Source of the DNA: Bosea sp. PAMC 26642 | GTDB lineage: Bacteria; Pseudomonadota; Alphaproteobacteria; Rhizobiales; Beijerinckiaceae | DNA: 64,000 nt | NCBI RefSeq assembly: GCF_001562255.1 | Contig: NZ_CP014301.1 | Span: 4,123,501 to 4,187,500 of the forward strand | Reading direction: 5' to 3' | Shown here: piece after piece, positions 51,000-61,258 of the stretch | How the letters are laid out: every line of letters begins with the position of its first letter | Numbering within the stretch: the stretch's first letter is position 1 | Notes under the pieces: generated by a model | Databases searched by the model: none | Seen by the model: the letters and a program-made list of their open reading frames with translations, nothing else | Told to the model about the DNA's origin: nothing | Position numbers and translations under genes: made by a program

Positions 51000-51398
51000 T
51001 TATTCGAGAAAGCAGTGTGACAATATCAACTTACAATCATGGTCATTACTAATACATCCCGACACTATAGTTGACAATTGTCGACGAGTGAACACAGCGT
51101 TATTCCAATATATCTGCCCTCGTCCTAGTATAACATGAGCGCACTGCCCAGGCTGGTACTCTTGGGCAACAACGCAGCGAGAGTTCTTGCACTCAGACAA
51201 TGCCAAGTTACGCGCTTCTCCGGCAGTCGCCGCAGTTCCAAATCCGCGAAATACACGGCCTTGCTTTGGAACAACAGCGAGGGCGCCGTACTCTGCCGCC
51301 GTAGCGAAGGAAAAATCCGCGTGGAGGAAGGTTGCGAGACCAGCTAACAAAATCGCAGTGCGCAAAGATTGTATCAATAACGCAGTTCCCGTGGCCAT
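51000..51398 (-). CDS. Exported DUF4189 protein
   Basis: The 132-residue protein has a signal peptide (TALLIQSLRTAILLAGLATF...ATA) and a DUF4189 domain: YGALAVVPKQGRVFRGFGTA, then EARNLALSECKNSRCVVAQEYQPGQCAHVI with paired cysteines. DUF4189 proteins are small periplasmic proteins of unknown role, often with several disulfides. It lies on the same strand and downstream of the broken caspase gene and may belong to that gene set. Confidence 0.8.
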   Translation of the reverse strand: MATGTALLIQSLRTAILLAGLATFLHADFSFATAAEYGALAVVPKQGRVFRGFGTAATAGEARNLALSECKNSRCVVAQEYQPGQCAHVILGRGQIYWNNAVFTRRQLSTIVSGCISNDHDCKLILSHCFLE

Positions 51399-51669
51399 TC
51401 GTTAATCTTAGTCGATACAGTTTCGGAAACAAGGCAAAATGCCCACAGGATGAACGGGCTTTCATGAGCGGGATAGCTTAAATTGCTGACAGGTTCATAT
51501 TATAATCGACGGTATTAATCTGGCGTAGGCAGGAAACCGGTGACGATTCGATGTCGTACGCCAGATTTAGAGAGGAAAATGACTAGATTTCTGCTGGACC
51601 ATTCTCGATCCAGGGAACCCTGATAGCAGCCTACCCTTGTGATCTCGACGTTGCTGGTCCTAGCTAAAG

Positions 51670-52060
51670 CCGACGGAACCCATGCGCGGTTGAAATAGAA
51701 ATTTCTTGCAGCGAAACGGACAGCTCGGGCGTCTGCCGACCGTTTGTCTTCTTGTTGACTTCAACCCCCACGCGACGGAACAGCTGACCTACCTCCAATC
51801 CAGGCTCACGGAACTGCTCCACAAATGCGGCGGTGAACGGACTGTTGCGGCCTGTGCCGTCAGCGCCTCTCTCATGGCGCGTCGATTGAGTTTCTGCGCT
51901 TCGAAAACCACAAACCCGTTGGATCGCAAAGCTTCAGCTAAATCTGACGCGTCGTTAGCCGTGTTTGGCAGCGCCGGCACCGTGAGGTAATTCGAATTGC
52001 CAATAACCAGCGCTACGCGTCTTTCGGTCGGAGACGCAGCTAAAACTGCAGAAGTTTACG
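51670..52060 (-). pseudogene. Broken caspase-like (C14) gene
   Basis: The minus strand gives ERRVALVIGNSNYLTVPALP and NTANDASDLAEALRSNGF, nearly identical to the start of the caspase at 54,355. It then jumps at a frameshifted internal deletion to FTAAFVEQFREPGLEVGQLF and NKKTNGRQTPELSVSL. About 130 codons with the catalytic His and Cys are gone, the signal peptide frame is broken, and the coiled coil is absent. It follows the exported-family gene at 52,177 as the intact caspase follows the one at 56,474, so it is a decayed duplicate of a two-gene unit. Confidence 0.85.
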
Positions 52061-52176
52061 CAAAGCAAATAAAAATCGAAAAAAAGAGAAATATATTTGA
52101 GACAGAATTGGAATTCTGACGTCCAGTGGCTGAGATCGCGCTGGCCGACTAGTTTTGCTTTTGTTGCCTCACCATC

Positions 52177-52662
52177 TCAAAGCACCTCACAGCTCGCTTG
52201 GTGGACTTCAGGACGATGGAACTCGACATGTCTTCCGCGTCTCCGCGCATAACGTTCAAACGATGTGCGACCGGGCTTCAACCTCCATTCCAATGAGACT
52301 GAGCATGAGCTGGCACCGTCCGTCTTTAGCATAATCGCGAACGTGTGCGACGATTCGGCTTGGAGTCTCATTAGGGTTCTTTCATTCAGAACCTTCCAAC
52401 GACCCGGTATATGTCCATTCAGGTCGTCACCAAGGTCACCTTCTTGAAGTCGCCCTCTACCTGTTCGGCCGCGCCGTATACGCCTATATGATTCGGAGAT
52501 ATTGCCTCCCGGCATTAGCGTCACGGTCAGTACCGAACTGATCAATCGGGAGCGACTTTCCAGCTCGGATTCTGTCCAAGCCATCGTCAGCCGAAATTGC
52601 ACTTCCTTTGCCAGTGATACGGTAGGCAACCAAAGAAGCGTTAGTGCAAAAATGTATCTCAT
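52177..52662 (-). CDS. Exported protein of the caspase-linked family (member 1)
   Basis: The 161-residue protein has a signal peptide (MRYIFALTLLWLPTVSLA) and then VQFRLTMAWTESELESRSRL, VTLMPGGNISESY, GDLGDDL, GRWKVLNERTLMRL, IMLKTDGASSC and a final ASCEVL. The same landmarks occur in the proteins at 56,474, 57,167 and 57,764, closest to the first (about half identical). Two conserved cysteines suggest a disulfide. The fold looks like a beta sandwich of about 140 residues. I do not recognise a named family. It is just upstream of the broken caspase gene. Confidence 0.8.
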   Translation of the reverse strand: MRYIFALTLLWLPTVSLAKEVQFRLTMAWTESELESRSRLISSVLTVTLMPGGNISESYRRIRRGRTGRGRLQEGDLGDDLNGHIPGRWKVLNERTLMRLQAESSHTFAIMLKTDGASSCSVSLEWRLKPGRTSFERYARRRGRHVEFHRPEVHQASCEVL

Positions 52663-52869
52663 TGCTGTGGAAGTTCACCAAGGCTGATCACGATAAAATT
52701 GAACGGTCAAGGATCGATGTTCGTTGCGGCGCGCTGAAACTATGAAAGGATCAGGTCGGCTGGACATTCGGAATTATCAGCACTAAGTGGCGGCTGCGCA
52801 AGAGCGCGTCTTCTAAAGTCTGGACGGATGGTTGCGCTACGTCTTCGCACCGGCGCCTGCCGGCGCGCA

Positions 52870-53215
52870 AATGCGCGGCGTGCGCCCATTCGAAACGGGA
52901 TCCGCCAAGGTTCGCCGTCCTGCCGCGTGACCCGCAACAGCCTGCAGTGGAAGGGCGCACGCAAAGGCTAAGGTCCGCCCAAGACGCTCTACAACCGCTT
53001 CATTCGCTGGAGCCGCTCGGTGTCTTCGACCGGATCTTTGCCGGGCTTGCCGGCAAAGGGCCCAAGCCGGAGCGGATCATGATCAACGCGACGCATCTGA
53101 AGGCGCACCGCACGGCGGCGGGCCTGTTAAAAAGGGGGCTCTTCCCAGTCGTATCGGGCGCACCAAGGGCGGACTGAACTCCAAGCGCCATTGCACCAAC
53201 GTTGATTACGATTAG
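52870..53215 (+). pseudogene. IS5-family (IS427-like) transposase remnant
   Basis: Frames in succession give RVTRNSLQWKGARKG, GPPKTLYNRFIRWSR, then LGVFDRIFAGLAGKGPKPER and IMINATHLKAHRTAAGLLKRGLF, the middle part of an IS5-type transposase. There are at least two frameshifts and a stop, and both ends are missing. It marks former mobile-element activity between the two caspase units. Confidence 0.8.
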
Positions 53216-53456
53216 AAAATTTGATCACATCTTTTGGGAGCCGATGATTATTCTGATTTGGTTGCAACTTTAGATGGTGCATCGAGAAAATTTGTGGCCC
53301 TATCGATCACTTTCCGATTTGAGGGCAAATGCCTATGACTTCAGTTTAGGTCACCAGCCTACCATCTTAGACAATCATGTTTATACTCGACACACCAGTA
53401 TTCGACACACCAGCGCATGACAAAATCTAAACCTCATCAAACCGCCAATATTTTCT

Positions 53457-53852
53457 CTAGGATATCTTTTTTGATTGATATTGTACATGAAAATGCGCGC
53501 CGTGACCATTAATTTCATGGTGGAACGCCGTTCTTCCGTCTTTTGTTTTATTTATATTAGAGACATTATAAGAATTTAGTATCCGTAACATTTCCGGGAT
53601 GTATTGTTCAATTCCCCGTGATCTTAAGTCGATCGCAGCCCACACAGAGTGAGCTGTCTTTTTTCCTTTCTCCATTATATATATTTTATCGTTCTCATCC
53701 TGAGATCTAAATATGCATGTCACATAAAGATCAACCTTGCGTTTCGATTTCATATGTGATGAAAGCTGAATCATTATATGGCATAACTTCGGATTAAATT
53801 TCAATAGTTTTTGCCATTCTACGTTAAGCCGTTGTTCGGACATGATTAACAT
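53457..53852 (-). CDS. Peptidase M15-like protein (DD-peptidase fold)
   Basis: The 131-residue protein matches the zinc site of M15 peptidases: FRSQDEN (Arg49), TAHSVWAAID with His68 and Asp75 at the S-x-H-x2-G-x-A-x-D spacing, and GAHFHV with His120 and His122. Such enzymes cut D-Ala-D-Ala or L-Ala-D-Glu bonds in peptidoglycan. No signal peptide is visible, so it may act in the cytoplasm or be released by other means. The ATG at 53852 has GGAG seven bases before it. The DNA is very AT-rich. It lies between the two caspase units. Confidence 0.65.
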   Translation of the reverse strand: MLIMSEQRLNVEWQKLLKFNPKLCHIMIQLSSHMKSKRKVDLYVTCIFRSQDENDKIYIMEKGKKTAHSVWAAIDLRSRGIEQYIPEMLRILNSYNVSNINKTKDGRTAFHHEINGHGAHFHVQYQSKKIS

Positions 53853-54354
53853 TTCTATTCTCCAATTATAACGTGTTACTATGAACTGCCTACGGGCCAA
53901 TTATCGTCGTAAGGCCGGATGTAAGTAGTTGTCACAATATATGACATCACTTGCCGATAGATCGATTCGACAAGTGCGAATCCGTATTCCTTTTTTTAAC
54001 CGCCATGTCTGCGAACTACATCACATAGTCGTCCTACCTACAAAGCGGCGCTCGAGGTTATAATATTATATCACTATGCCGATCTAGGTAGTGAACCTTC
54101 GTTGACTTGTTCCTTGCAACTAGCATCTCCATGCTCCAGTGCCCGTCCACTCTAAACGCGTGGCCGCAGCAATCGGCATCGGAGGTGACTTGGGCGGTTA
54201 GCCTTTCATCAGGTTCAAATGCCATTTCGGCGCTCCGTACGCGAATATTGCGTTACCCGATGCAATGCCTGCGGCAAAAAACAAACTTATTGACACGATT
54301 ATCTACGAGGAGGTGACCCTCTGGAGCGATGCGGTTCTCAGGCAGGGCTTATTG
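53853..54354. other. Gene-free stretch before the caspase gene end
   Basis: About 500 bases without a convincing gene. Short frames exist on the plus strand but lack ribosome sites and similarity. Confidence 0.5.
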
Positions 54355-56421
54355 TCACTCACAGAACGACTGACCATTGAAACTGAAGCACCGTCCAGAT
54401 CGCGTCGACTTCGGCGCCGCCGGCGCTCGGATAGCCGGAGCGGGTCTTGAAGGAACCTGCCTCACCACTCGCTTTTTGTCCGCAACGCAACCGCCATCGC
54501 CATTCAGCGTCTCGCCGCGCGGGCAGGTCTTTGCGACGCAGGCGTTTCCGCGAAGCAGTTGGTGGACAGAACAGGTCGGGGCGCAGACGCGCTCATCTTG
54601 TTTTTGTAAGAGGTTTAAGAAGTTCGGATCCGGTCGTTCTGGGGCGGGGACGTTAGCTAGCTTGATGAACAGTTGAACGGCTTCTTTGACGTTGGGGCTC
54701 GTCCATCCCTCGGTAGCGGCCCCATTAAAACAACCAATCCGGGACAATTCCAGATTGATCGTGCGCGCTAGGACGCGGGAGTCCTGAGGCGTTGGCAATT
54801 CTTCGGCGTCAACCGCGCGCGGCAACGATGCCATCTGCGTGGAGCTCGCTGTCGCTGCGGTTTTAGCCGCCTCGGCCGCAAGAGCCACTTCCTTCTGCAC
54901 CCTGAGAAGCTCCTCGTTGGCGCGACGCTTCTCGGCTTCGAGTTCCTGGAGCAGTTTAACCCGTTCGCGCTCGGCCGCGTCTCGCAAACCCTGTTCGGCT
55001 TTGAACCGGTCCGACAGTTCAAGCGTAGATTTCCGGTTCTGCTCCTCCAGCAAAAGAAGGCGCTTAGCCAAGCGTTCATCCTCGTCCTGCTTCTGTCGGC
55101 TTGCAGCTGTTTCGGCCGCCTTCAATCGCTGGGCCTGCTCTGTAGCGATGCGCTCACGCTCAGCACTGAGCCGTTCGCGCTCCTTGTCGCTCTGGGCTCG
55201 CTTCTCTTCGGACGTCGCGCGATTGGCAAGCTCGCTCTGGAAGCGGCGTTTCTCCTCTTCAAGTTGTGCTAGTCGAGCATCGAGCAGCTTCTTCTGCTCT
55301 GCCTGTGCGCGGACGGCATCTTGCTGGGCTTTGCGCAGCACGTCTGCGTGCGTGTCCGCGAGTTTTTGTCGTTCCTGCCGTTCGGCCTCGAGACGCAAGC
55401 GCTCTTGACGGTTAGCTGCCTCGGCGGCGTTCTCCGCTTTTCGACGATCTTCCTCGAACTGGTCGAGCTGCCTTCGCAAAGTAGCTTCTCGCTGGGTCCT
55501 TTCCAGGACGTCAAGGCGCGCTTTGGCGGCATCGGCCAGAACGCTTGCTGGAAACCGCTCCAAAAAGCCTTTTAAGGCAGGCGCATCTCCACTAGCGCGA
55601 ACTTTCGACCATGCGGTCACGTCCGTCTCGCGGAGATTAAAGTAGAAGTCGCCGAGCAGAGAGATCGACAACTCTGGGGTCTGTCGGCCATCGGTCTTCT
55701 TGTTCACTTCGACAGCCACGCGCCGAAAGAGCTGTCCAACCTCAACCCCGGGCTCGCGAAGTTGCTCGACGAAGGCTGCTGTAAATGGGCTGTTGCGACC
55801 GGCTCCATCAGCTGCCACGTCATTCGCCTGAGTTGCGTAGGCGACCACCATTCCCTGGTTCTGTGCGATCCGCGCTAAGCCACGTGTCTCGCCGGTGCTT
55901 CTTGTCCGCGGCGCGCGCGCAAGACGGTCTGAAAGCGGATTGTTACGGCATGCATCCAATATGAGGATACGCGGGCCCTTAGCGTTACTCAAAGCCTCTA
56001 TCACGTCGGCGACTCTCGTCGTCTCGTATGGTATTCCGAACTCGTCGGACGGCGCGCTGTCGGTCGAGACGAGATAGTTCTCACCGCGAAACTGCAAACC
56101 GTGACCTGCATAATAAAACAGCGCGGCGTCGGCTCCGTCCGCCAGTCTCGCGAAACGGCCGAGAGCTTCACCCATTCCTCGTCGGTCAAGATTGCGGGCT
56201 TCAATAACCTCAAAACCATTGTTCCGAAGGCCCTCTGCAACATCGCTGGCATCGTTGGCCGTGTTCGGAAGTGCAGGGACGGTTCTATAGGTTGAGTTGC
56301 CGATGACGAGTGCTACACGTCGTTCGGACGTCTCGCCGGGAGCGGCCTCAACGACGGTCACGAACCCAACGCCAACAGCGATGGCCAAGCGACAGATGAT
56401 CAGTAGGCGCGCAAGTATCAT
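54355..56421 (-). CDS. Exported caspase-like (C14) peptidase with coiled coil and cysteine-rich C-terminus
   Basis: The 688-residue protein has a signal peptide (to about residue 27), then a caspase p20-like domain: RRVALVIGNSTYRTVPALPN, catalytic His107 in FYYAGHGLQ and Cys158 in LILDACRNNP. SPFTAAFVEQLREPGVEVGQ follows as in bacterial orthocaspases. Residues about 300-530 form a long charged coiled coil (RERLSAERERIATEQAQRLK and similar). The C-terminus has eight or more cysteines, including CAPTCSVHQLLRGNACVAKTC and the end GRCFSFNGQSFCE. The exported location with both catalytic residues present suggests a periplasmic protease. Its 56,474 neighbour is 52 bases upstream on the same strand. 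Confidence 0.92.
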   Translation of the reverse strand: MILARLLIICRLAIAVGVGFVTVVEAAPGETSERRVALVIGNSTYRTVPALPNTANDASDVAEGLRNNGFEVIEARNLDRRGMGEALGRFARLADGADAALFYYAGHGLQFRGENYLVSTDSAPSDEFGIPYETTRVADVIEALSNAKGPRILILDACRNNPLSDRLARAPRTRSTGETRGLARIAQNQGMVVAYATQANDVAADGAGRNSPFTAAFVEQLREPGVEVGQLFRRVAVEVNKKTDGRQTPELSISLLGDFYFNLRETDVTAWSKVRASGDAPALKGFLERFPASVLADAAKARLDVLERTQREATLRRQLDQFEEDRRKAENAAEAANRQERLRLEAERQERQKLADTHADVLRKAQQDAVRAQAEQKKLLDARLAQLEEEKRRFQSELANRATSEEKRAQSDKERERLSAERERIATEQAQRLKAAETAASRQKQDEDERLAKRLLLLEEQNRKSTLELSDRFKAEQGLRDAAERERVKLLQELEAEKRRANEELLRVQKEVALAAEAAKTAATASSTQMASLPRAVDAEELPTPQDSRVLARTINLELSRIGCFNGAATEGWTSPNVKEAVQLFIKLANVPAPERPDPNFLNLLQKQDERVCAPTCSVHQLLRGNACVAKTCPRGETLNGDGGCVADKKRVVRQVPSRPAPAIRAPAAPKSTRSGRCFSFNGQSFCE

Positions 56422-56473
56422 GAGGTACCGCTGATACCGGTTGAAGGGGGCTTATTTTCTTGGATCGATATCG

Positions 56474-56986
56474 TCATCCCATCACTTCGCAATTCGCTTG
56501 ATGAACTGTCGGTTGGGTGAAGCTGTCAACCCGTGGCCCGCGCCGAGTTTGTCGCTGTTCGACGAGCGTGGAAACGCCGTCCTTGGCGCGCCATTCAAGT
56601 GCAATTGAGCACGACCGTAGCCCATCAGTCGTCAGCCGGATTGTGAAGGTATGGGTAGTATGGGCGGCAAGCCGTATCAGACTGTGCGCATTTAGAACTC
56701 GCCAGCGACCAACGATAACGCCTGAGAAATCCTCACCGAGCTCACCCTCTTGTACTCTGGTACGCCTGCCGGGCCTTCCTCCACGCAGGCGAGTGTAACT
56801 TTCCAACACCTTAGCACCCGGCATCAATGTGACCAGCAACCTTGACATGACCAACCGCGAACGCTCACCGGCTTCGGTGGGATCCTGCGTCCAGGCCATG
56901 GTCAGCCGGAATTGGGCATTCTGCGCCACCGCGACCGTCGGAAAAAGCGCAGCTGCGACGATAACTAATGCTCGCGCGATCGACAT
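56474..56986 (-). CDS. Exported protein of the caspase-linked family (member 2)
   Basis: The 170-residue protein has a signal peptide MSIARALVIVAAALFPTVAVA. Landmarks are AQFRLTMAWTQDPTEAGERS, VTLMPGAKVLESYTRL, GELGEDFSGV, GRWRVLNAHSLIRL, TTDGLRSCSIALEWRAKDG and HQANCEVMG. It precedes the intact caspase by 52 bases in the same direction, so they are probably one operon: this protein may be substrate, inhibitor or adaptor of the caspase. The frame extends to 57019 through a GGCAG repeat, but the ATG at 56986 starts the signal peptide. Confidence 0.82.
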   Translation of the reverse strand: MSIARALVIVAAALFPTVAVAQNAQFRLTMAWTQDPTEAGERSRLVMSRLLVTLMPGAKVLESYTRLRGGRPGRRTRVQEGELGEDFSGVIVGRWRVLNAHSLIRLAAHTTHTFTIRLTTDGLRSCSIALEWRAKDGVSTLVEQRQTRRGPRVDSFTQPTVHQANCEVMG

Positions 56987-57166
56987 ATCTACGCTCGCAC
57001 CTGCCTGCCTGCCTGGCATCGAAACTCAGCCTAGTCAGTCGCAATCATCATATTAGACGCCTGAGCACATCGCCTATAGGAAAATTACGTCAAGCTACCC
57101 CGGTAACTTGCATAACCATCCGTTTAGCCATAGCCTCGGCTTCTTCTATCAGGCAGGCGAAGCTGA

Positions 57167-57679
57167 ATGCAATGTGCCGTATTGCCTCTGGTCGCATTTT
57201 GCCTCCTTCAATGCTCAGCTGCTTTGGCAGAAGAAGTCCGCTTCGAGGTGTCGCTGGCGTGGATCCATCACCAGGTATCTCCGAAAGTGCAGAGTCGGCA
57301 AAATCAACGCAGCATCATCGTTACGCTAAAACCCGGCAACCGCGTCGAGGAATCAATACTCAATACCGTCGACGGCAACGCTAGTAGAGCACTGAATTTT
57401 AGTCGCCAGGGAGGCTTGGGCGAGGAATTCGGTGAACGCCGAAAGAGCGCCTGGAAGGTGGTTAACGCGAACACCTTGGCGCGGGTCCAAGATCGCAAGA
57501 CCTACAGTTGGGTGATCTGGCTGAGGACCGACGGCCAAAAACGCTGTACTGTGACGATGGAATGGAAGTTGAAGCCTGGTCAAACCGAATATGTTGGCTG
57601 GGCCTCCAGGCTTAAGCAGGAATTCCGCTTTACAGAACCAACTGACATTTTCACTTCATGCCGGGCCATAATTAATTAA
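57167..57679 (+). CDS. Exported protein of the caspase-linked family (member 3)
   Basis: The 170-residue protein, divergent from member 2, has a signal peptide ending SAALA. Landmarks are VRFEVSLAWIHHQVS, VTLKPGNRVEESILN, GGLGEEFGE, AWKVVNANTLARVQ, LRTDGQKRCTVTMEWKLKPG and a C-terminal SCRA in place of SCEV. Identity to members 1 and 2 is low outside these points, showing long divergence. It shares the divergent promoter region 56,987-57,166 with the caspase operon. Confidence 0.8.
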   Translation: MQCAVLPLVAFCLLQCSAALAEEVRFEVSLAWIHHQVSPKVQSRQNQRSIIVTLKPGNRVEESILNTVDGNASRALNFSRQGGLGEEFGERRKSAWKVVNANTLARVQDRKTYSWVIWLRTDGQKRCTVTMEWKLKPGQTEYVGWASRLKQEFRFTEPTDIFTSCRAIIN

Positions 57680-57763
57680 TGTCGGACTGTTTCACTGTGG
57701 TCGGTTAAAAGCCGCGAGCTCAGTGATATTAGAGCGAGGCGCACCCATGACAATGGAGGAATT

Positions 57764-58306
57764 ATGTACATCCTTTACAAAATATCGCTAACGTCGACTC
57801 TTATCATACTTACGATTATTGCGTTTACAAAAATTTCATTTGCTGATGTTATATTTAAGATAAACTTGGAGTGGATAACTGAGGAAATATTTCCGCGGAC
57901 CGAGATCAGGCGAGTAAAACGATCGTCGGTGGTTACGTTAAAGGGCAATAATAAGATATCTGAGGTTGTACAATTTGGTGGTCCGGGCGGGCCGAGATCA
58001 TCAAGAGATGTGTCGCGCGTAGTTACTCTTGGAGAAGACTTTGATACTCTGGAAGCTAGGGGAGCTTGGAAAGTTGTAAACTCGACCACAATCGTGCGTT
58101 TACTCGCTCGCCAGACCCACACGACAGCTCTATGGATCCGTACTACGCCGGAGGGGCGATGCATCACGGATATCGAGTGGCGCCGCAAATCCGGCGTGAG
58201 TGAGCTAATGAGCTGGTCTGCTCGTCGAAAGGAGAATTACGAATACAAAATTCCAACTTTAATTTCAGGTAGTTGCGAAGTAATAAGCTCAACTATCACC
58301 CAATGA
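57764..58306 (+). CDS. Exported protein of the caspase-linked family (member 4)
   Basis: The 180-residue protein has a hydrophobic export signal ending KISFA. Landmarks are VIFKINLEWITEEIFPRTEI, VVTLKGNNKISEVV, TLGEDFDTL, GAWKVVNSTTIVRLL, IRTTPEGRCITDIEWRRKSG and SGSCEVISS. GGAGGAA stands just before the ATG. The gene is AT-rich compared with members 1-3, so it may have come from another source. It follows member 3 by 84 bases, probably in one transcript. Confidence 0.82.
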   Translation: MYILYKISLTSTLIILTIIAFTKISFADVIFKINLEWITEEIFPRTEIRRVKRSSVVTLKGNNKISEVVQFGGPGGPRSSRDVSRVVTLGEDFDTLEARGAWKVVNSTTIVRLLARQTHTTALWIRTTPEGRCITDIEWRRKSGVSELMSWSARRKENYEYKIPTLISGSCEVISSTITQ

Positions 58307-60433: not shown

Positions 60434-61258
60434 ATGCGGGCGGTCTCAGATTTCATGGGATGGCTCGATCATCGCGGTGTGGTGGACATCCGAGAGATCA
60501 ACTCGTTCGTGGTTGCAGCATACGTGGAAGAGCTTCAGCGGCGGCATCCTGCTCCGACGGTGAAGCAGCGACTGGCTGGCGTTAGAGCCATGCTGGATTG
60601 GTTGGCCACCGGCGGCATTATCGCTTTCAATCCTGCGACGGCTGTTCGGGGACCGCGCTACTCGGTCAAGACGGGCAAGACGCCAGTACTGGCTCCCGAC
60701 GAGGCACGACAGCTTCTCGACAGCATTGATGTCAGCACCACGGTCGGTCTCCGCGATAAGGCGCTGATCGGCCTCATGGTCTATTCCTTCGCTCGCATAG
60801 GCGCGGCTGTCGGCATGAAGGCCGAGGACGTCTACGTGCAAAAGCGACGGCTGTGGGTCCGGCTGCATGAGAAGGGCGGAAAGCGCCACGAGATGCCCTG
60901 CCATCACAGCCTCGAACGCTACCTCTCTGATTATATGGAACATGCTGAAATGGCCTCGTCACCGCAGGCGTGGCTATTCCAGACCATCGGCCGAGGCACC
61001 GGCAGGCTCAGCGGAAACCCGATGCCGCAAGCCAGTGCCTATCAGATGGTTCAGCGCCGTGCTGAAGCCACGGGCATCGCCACCAAGATCGGCAATCACA
61101 CGTTCAGAGCCACTGGGATAACCGCCTACCTCAGCAATGGCGGGACACTGGAAAAGGCGGCGTCGATGGCCAATCACGCATCAACGCGTACGACGCAACT
61201 CTACGATCGGCGCTCGGGCGACATCACGTTGGATGAGGTCGAGCGGATTCTTATCTAG
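60434..61258 (+). CDS. Tyrosine recombinase (XerC/D-like), second integrase
   Basis: From the ATG at 60434 the protein has 274 residues with the catalytic pattern FARIGAAVGM (Arg), HTFRATGITAYLSNGG (His-x-x-Arg), MANHAS (His) and TTQLYDRR (Tyr). The in-frame DNA upstream to about 60,299 also reads like the core-binding domain (ERASYRFLEFFAAQVRNANT), but offers only a CTG as start and overlaps the TIGR02391 end in the -1 frame. The true protein is thus probably about 45 residues longer, or was made from a frame-shifted or reinitiated transcript. It is followed by the second HUH-like gene. Confidence 0.85.
   Translation: MRAVSDFMGWLDHRGVVDIREINSFVVAAYVEELQRRHPAPTVKQRLAGVRAMLDWLATGGIIAFNPATAVRGPRYSVKTGKTPVLAPDEARQLLDSIDVSTTVGLRDKALIGLMVYSFARIGAAVGMKAEDVYVQKRRLWVRLHEKGGKRHEMPCHHSLERYLSDYMEHAEMASSPQAWLFQTIGRGTGRLSGNPMPQASAYQMVQRRAEATGIATKIGNHTFRATGITAYLSNGGTLEKAASMANHASTRTTQLYDRRSGDITLDEVERILI

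Follow-up and report, generated by a model that had tools for sequence, protein, structure and literature searches.

The question raised by this locus is what a caspase apparently destined for export has to do with the small exported proteins encoded around it. The stretch analysed here (the window; 64,000 nucleotides (nt) from the soil bacterium Bosea sp. PAMC 26642, contig NZ_CP014301.1, positions 4,123,501 to 4,187,500 of the forward strand) encodes, between window positions 51000 and 58306, a caspase-like peptidase of family C14 and four small proteins, F1 to F4. A first-pass annotation made from the letters alone had proposed that protease and family form a functional pair, such as a protease with its inhibitor, substrate or adaptor. 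We find that proposal strongly supported by co-occurrence, by linkage at several genomic sites, by four-base gene overlaps and by a common tag at the caspase tail, and on these sequence grounds we regard a functional pair as very probable; the sequence leaves the choice among the three partner roles undecided.

All four family open reading frames (ORFs) were found where the annotation had placed them. F2 (56474..57019, minus strand, 181 amino acids (aa)) ends 52 nt upstream of the caspase start, F1 (52177..52662, minus strand, 161 aa) lies upstream of a second, decayed caspase, and F3 (57167..57679, plus strand, 170 aa) and F4 (57764..58306, plus strand, 180 aa; the longest branch in our tree) are divergent from F2. 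Searched against its own 5.5 Mb genome, F2 retrieves itself (E 1.6e-117), F1 (1e-48), F3 (1.5e-19) and F4 (9.9e-15), the sole remaining row having E 0.11. These are indeed four diverged paralogues, all recovered at E <1e-14: in alignment A1, F1, F3 and F4 are 53, 29 and 28% identical to F2 (overall range 28-53%), and 24 columns are invariant, two of them cysteine (Cys). Sec-type signals are read by eye at the N-termini of the members. The landmarks described for the family exist in a looser form than first given: TLxPG is broken in F4, LGEDF becomes LGDDL in F1 and LGEEF in F3, WKVxN reads WRVLN in F2 and TDG fails in F4, while CEV does occur near the ends of F1, F2 and F4, although not as their final residues, and F3 has CRA.

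The family was said to be unrecognised, and profile searches matched no member to a known family: Pfam, NCBIfam and PADLOC gave none for F1-F4 (Pfam rows such as GH43_C for F1, E 0.049, and DUF7926 for F3, E 0.03, lie far below their cut-offs), and profile A2 found no match among PDB sequences at E up to 10. Pfam includes staphostatin models and the Inh/AprI inhibitor family; neither the former, in Pfam and NCBIfam, nor the latter, in Pfam, was among the matches of F1-F4 at E up to 1.

The caspase (54355..56421, 688 aa; all positions in this gene are on the minus strand) matches the whole Pfam C14 domain (E 2.8e-42; 145.4 bits against a cut-off of 21.4), and its catalytic His107 (56101..56103) and Cys158 (55948..55950), intact as the annotation had stated, are invariant in alignment A8 of four orthologues. 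A signal peptide (by eye) is followed by the caspase domain (residues 34-260), a long coiled coil (about 292-522), a three-helix part resembling peptidoglycan (PG)-binding domains, Cys-rich hairpins and the C-terminal tag. PG_binding_1 gives a match below cut-off in three of five caspase tails, the window's own not among them, and a structure model from a four-row alignment (mean predicted local distance difference test score (pLDDT) 61), to be taken as a hint only, has the long coiled coil and forms a strand-turn-strand hairpin where the tag lies. Asp57 (56251..56253, located by counting back from the aligned His) and Asp156 (55954..55956) align by sequence with Asp365 and Asp462 of MALT1, which sit in the S1 pocket for arginine (Arg) (PMC4357240; this and the other papers are cited from the portions of their text available to us); the third MALT1 residue, Glu500, falls outside the aligned region. 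Since these acidic S1 residues align with MALT1, as suits an orthocaspase or paracaspase type, cleavage after Arg or lysine (Lys) would be expected.

The annotation had also pointed out that the unit of a family member followed by a caspase is present twice, once decayed, and this proved correct. Beyond the 3' end of F1 lies a remnant (51518..52046, minus strand) in several pieces, which correspond in shifting frames to residues 23-87 (71%), 203-255 (87%) and 551-595 (36%) of the caspase, so that residues 88-202, the catalytic part including His and Cys, are lost; Pfam C14 also matches two of the pieces. F1 and F2 are sister sequences in the tree (support 95/91), and the unit was therefore either doubled or gained twice.

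If the pairing has meaning, it should recur, and within the genus it does. Eighteen of the 20 copies adjoin a C14 gene (four in the window, where F1 stands beside the dead one, four each in genomes G366 and G458, and two each in G408, G414 and G432), and by locus seven of nine are linked, at four different sites. The loci of G366, G408, G414 and G458 represent one common site behind a hybrid histidine kinase and flhB (by Pfam on L075); by tblastn these two genes are present at all four shared-site loci and not in the window, G432 or G453, and the window, G432 and a second G414 locus occupy sites other than this flagellar one. Random placement would yield 0.06 linked loci (P about 1e-14; with a single count for the shared site, 6e-9; kinship is not modelled in either). 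At the second G414 locus the member is divergent from another kind of C14 protein, 774 aa long and ending in an outer-membrane-barrel domain (L078:6887-9211; OMP_b-brl, E 1e-10, tested in L078 only), which is exported and autotransporter-like. Similar C-termini occur on proteins in L099, L105, L107 and L108.

Gene arrangement in the relatives is tighter than in the window itself, where members precede the caspase by 52 nt or face away and no overlap occurs. At L015 and L017 the caspase and four members form a chain: the caspase stop and the start of the first member overlap as ATGA, and each next member can start in such a four-base overlap (ATGA or GTGA), one member having a later possible start as well. 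An overlap also joins the two members of L016, and the caspase and member of L079, and G432 carries on a single strand a member, the caspase, a second member and a gene of another family, FAM-B, described below. Between L015 and L017 the four members have ratios of nonsynonymous to synonymous substitution rates (dN/dS) of 0.24, 0.34, 0.22 and 0.15, compared with 0.09 in the caspase, 0.06 in the kinase and 0.08 in a methyltransferase; the members are under purifying selection yet evolve faster than the caspase. The fourth tandem member in L017 (L017:6814-7329) has an in-frame TAG where its L015 counterpart is open; it was excluded from alignments A2 and A3 and from the tree, and the stop column was skipped in dN/dS.

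How widely, then, do the two travel together? Members were counted by a six-frame scan, which covers overlapping frames, and the genome searches cap the candidates scored in each genome, which makes the family counts lower bounds. The family is present in 6 of 67 Bosea genomes, with 20 copies (14-row model), in 2 of 397 genomes of the order (E 0.001, four-row model), in nine genomes of a family-level sample of 397 (five Bosea and four others), and in 1 of 385 in a class-level sample, that being its own genome. The matches outside the genus are G473 (two copies), G479 and the weak G507 and G737 (E about 0.002). F2 found no match in plasmids, and the eight stretches returned from IMG/VR viral contigs held no relative. 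Matches to the caspase over its full length (to residue 688) are confined to seven of the 67 genus genomes, namely the six that carry the family and G453 (P 7e-8 for the co-occurrence, uncorrected for kinship). All seven of these caspases adjoin a family member or FAM-B, and the members without a live caspase comprise two orphans (G366:C14 and G408:C38, which share similar neighbourhoods) and F1, whose own caspase is dead.

The apparent exception led to a second partner family. In G453 the full-length caspase has no member of the first family (FAM) beside it; its divergent neighbour is instead an exported protein with two conserved Cys, FAM-B, the same that occurs in the G432 array. All nine FAM-B proteins tested against Pfam and NCBIfam stayed below cut-off (best rows E 0.0068 and 0.26). 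FAM-B occurs in 6 of the 67 genus genomes at seven loci, two of them beside C14, the two G414 copies being separated from a C14 gene by about 4 and 13 kb; on four plasmid records, all from Rhizobium and all beside a caspase gene (the fourth by coordinates only); in 1 of 199 genomes of the order, G112 (with an earlier FAM-B model); and in 4 of 119 genomes of the family of G112, at 15 loci, three of them beside C14. FAM-B thus adjoins C14 at 9 of 26 loci, G1185:C13 and G1185:C38, which stand at contig ends, being counted as unlinked. At L147:5872-7490 (G1190:C3) FAM-B is divergent from a short member-like ORF with no C14 nearby. From sequence profiles FAM and FAM-B may be distant kin; the comparison gave a probability of 15% and E 0.0017, on which we did not adopt them as one family.

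What the caspases with a partner have in common is their tail. The window caspase ends in RCFSFNGQSFCE (54358..54393, minus strand), an instance of the motif CFxFNGxx[FY]CE, and the tag is found in 12 of 13 uncut C14 genes that have a partner within 2.5 kb and in none of 43 uncut others (Fisher 2e-11, uncorrected for kinship, in a sample of 56 taken from genomes chosen for having partners rather than at random). This count takes in C14 genes with a known end and known flanks; it excludes the contig-end genes L141 (partner present), L113 and L156, and C14 matches with E >1e-10, the admission of which would add the window remnant only. Slightly varied, the tag also stands on the partner-adjacent caspases of Rhizobium, G112 and G1190, and among the 17 C14 genes of G112 (one cut) the FAM-B-adjacent one alone is tagged. 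Nor is the tag merely the mark of one group of C14 proteins, since in a cluster of 33 (at least 40% identity) only 9 bear it. In a motif scan of 8677 ORFs from 151 sources the motif ends caspase genes only, and tblastn of the Rhizobium tail against plasmids gave, at E up to 0.1, the caspases of the four Rhizobium records and, apart from these, two rows at E 4-6. The best match between the Rhizobium and window caspases lies in this tail (41% over 58 residues, E 6e-7), whereas the Rhizobium catalytic domain can scarcely be aligned to the window caspase by BLAST (E 0.16), its His and Cys being kept in a profile alignment. We speculate, with somewhat less than even confidence, that exported caspases from at least three alphaproteobacterial lineages bear the tag as a handle by which FAM and FAM-B proteins, mutually replaceable at the same caspase, recognise them, and that tag and partner, not the catalytic domain, form the conserved core of an envelope caspase system.

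For the shape of the partner we have a model of F2 (mean pLDDT 86.9, predicted template-modelling score 0.75) with a signal helix followed by eleven strands. A fold search found no match at E 0.001 in PDB or BFVD; the best PDB match had E 0.021, and among the best 50 of 985 matches the template-modelling score to the query was at most 0.39. The insignificant top PDB matches include LolA3, a siderocalin and a fatty-acid-binding protein, and lipocalins and fatty-acid-binding proteins are frequent among the matches listed. For gasdermins there was no Pfam or PADLOC match with F1-F4 and none in the same best 50 of 985 fold matches. The feature of most interest is a hairpin of F2 (strands 70-79 and 82-93) at whose residues 77-88 (56756..56791, minus strand) Arg density over 17 caspase-linked members peaks at 31%, compared with a mean of 11.5% (standard deviation 7%). 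Members of the F1/F2 clade and of type a have a strong cluster, and with pLDDT of about 87-93 the Arg hairpin is predicted to be well ordered.

We suggest, tentatively and from sequence, that the members are cognate, tag-docked gatekeepers, that is inhibitors, of an envelope caspase. The locus would then be an envelope protease module, its caspase exported and held in the periplasm by the coiled coil and the wall-binding-like part, and cutting after Arg or Lys to judge from its acidic S1 residues. The small exported beta-barrels encoded with it would be its cognate partners, docking on the C-terminal hairpin tag, whose two Cys presumably form a disulfide; the Arg hairpin of the F1/F2 type might serve as bait for the S1 pocket, a loop restraining the protease until a signal frees it, and the remaining members might vary the trigger or the target. 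The parts of this picture differ in standing. Intact dyad, pairing, overlaps in relatives and co-segregation of tag and partner are read from the sequences, with export signals judged by eye; the all-beta barrel-like fold, the Arg hairpin and the basic specificity are predicted; and we infer the inhibition, its trigger and the docking of the partners on the tag. We prefer the gatekeeper for three reasons: all seven full-length caspases have a partner while partners persist where no live caspase is left, the predicted Arg hairpin is well ordered, and, by analogy, barrel inhibitors encoded beside cysteine proteases are known (PMC2873492).

Several observations weigh against the pairing or against the gatekeeper. 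The P values given above are too small, many rows being kin. Homologues lying away from caspase genes, which the annotation had named as the sign to look for against its proposal, are the minority in the genus but the rule beyond it: none of the four non-genus loci (two of them weak matches) has a C14 gene in the stretch read or nearby on its contig, and 17 of the 26 FAM-B loci lack a C14 neighbour. The sole untagged partner-adjacent caspase is the outer-membrane-barrel one of G414. Type b, F3, F4, the neighbour of the barrel caspase and the orphans have a weaker Arg cluster or none, while the unlinked G473_2 and G479 carry five hairpin Arg; with few-Arg linked members and Arg-rich unlinked ones, Arg richness does not track the caspase cleanly. 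The top ten fold matches also contain polyketide dehydratases and a thioesterase, and, no match being significant, the label "lipocalin-like" is weak. The asymmetry of the orphans, finally, fits a substrate as well.

Alternatively, the members might be substrates, the caspase cutting the Arg-rich hairpin and thereby activating or removing an envelope effector in the manner of a small proteolytic cascade, with several members giving several outputs. Arg clusters at one place in many caspase-linked members, a basic S1 preference is predicted, the members diverge faster than the caspase (0.15-0.34 against 0.09) and the orthocaspase MaOC1 is described as cutting an adjacently encoded antitoxin with a preference for basic clusters (PMC7935541); but the hairpin is predicted to be well ordered rather than a flexible loop, its Arg count falls to 0-1 in type b and in some others of the linked members, and no Pfam effector domain is found. 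We hold this reading to be close behind the gatekeeper, although in itself rather unlikely. Somewhat less likely again would be a role as ligand-sensing adaptors. As calycin-like barrels the members would bind lipid or fragments of the wall and, docking on the tag, would switch the caspase or direct it to its target; several diverged copies per caspase would suit different ligands and the conserved tag a docking site; many of the top fold matches are indeed ligand-binding (LolA, siderocalin, fatty-acid-binding protein), but none is significant. That the two do not touch at all, being two kinds of accessory envelope gene that share genomic islands and stress regulation, would accord with the occurrence of wider relatives of both families without caspases and with the position of the window locus in a lower-GC stretch with an integrase; set against the start and stop overlaps, the linkage at four sites in the genus and in two more lineages, and the way the tail tag tracks the partner, we think it improbable.

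Other features of the neighbourhood may be noted. Guanine plus cytosine (GC) content is about 48-61% over window 38000-62000 compared with 63-70% across the first 26 kb, and a tyrosine recombinase is encoded at 60434-61258 (Pfam E 7e-22), so the locus probably lies in a genomic island. Between the two units an ORF at 53457-53900 without a Pfam match has a His/Asp spacing that we take to be reminiscent of M15-type peptidases. Downstream of the decayed caspase lies a DUF4189 protein (51000..51398, minus strand; Pfam E 1.5e-6), possibly a further partner; DUF4189 accompanies C14 at three more places, in the same ORF in L155:1347-2702 (G112:C98) and within a few kb at G458:C61 and G112:C23 (one of these below the Pfam cut-off), and it is likely a further caspase-associated domain. 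An exported DUF4399 protein (by Pfam in L098:4839-5294 and L109:7810-8292, and by sequence also in L099, L101 and L110) adjoins another Bosea C14 of about 600 aa and makes a further pair of caspase and neighbour. Three exported proteins that look alike, each about 165 aa long, stand beside C14 genes at L119:6681-7181 (no Pfam match), L094:17147-17668 and L106:2805-3293.

For many bacterial caspase homologues partner and role are still unknown. Two protein families absent from the libraries used here are now described, and an exported caspase group gains a defined tail tag, a predicted specificity and expressible partners, which makes the control of an envelope caspase testable. In the bacterial-caspase literature that we searched (supplements outside the scope) we found no description of the pair or the tag, and the system appears undescribed. 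Its setting is familiar. Bacterial caspase homologues are reported as abundant in Alphaproteobacteria, rhizobia above all, and probable signal peptides and operon partners are already on record for them (PMC3501461). The available text of the same paper describes, for four Rhizobium strains, an operon that joins a metacaspase to a presumed protease inhibitor, an alphaproteobacterial C14 system like ours whose partner was recognised by its domain, whereas the window partners are domain-less; this comparison is with the text description only.

With the EACC1-associated caspase NF047832 (73.3 bits, short of the cut-off of 140) and the PADLOC caspase profile (a partial match below cut-off), the window caspase has the C14 domain in common and adds a signal peptide, a coiled coil and the tag. 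MaOC1 of Microcystis, with its preference for basic clusters, is a bacterial caspase homologue encoded beside its protein target, but its partners are a toxin-antitoxin pair with a mainly helical antitoxin (PMC7935541), whereas F2 is predicted to be all-beta and exported. There is also a likeness in layout to staphopain and staphostatin and to the Bacteroides C10 proteases and their Bfi proteins, in which small inhibitors are encoded beside a cysteine protease, staphostatin being lipocalin-like and Bacteroides having several presumed inhibitor genes (bfi1A, bfi1B and bfi4), as far as the available part of PMC2873492 describes them. Those proteases belong to C47 and C10; here a C14 protease with a tail tag stands beside putative inhibitors that carry two conserved Cys.

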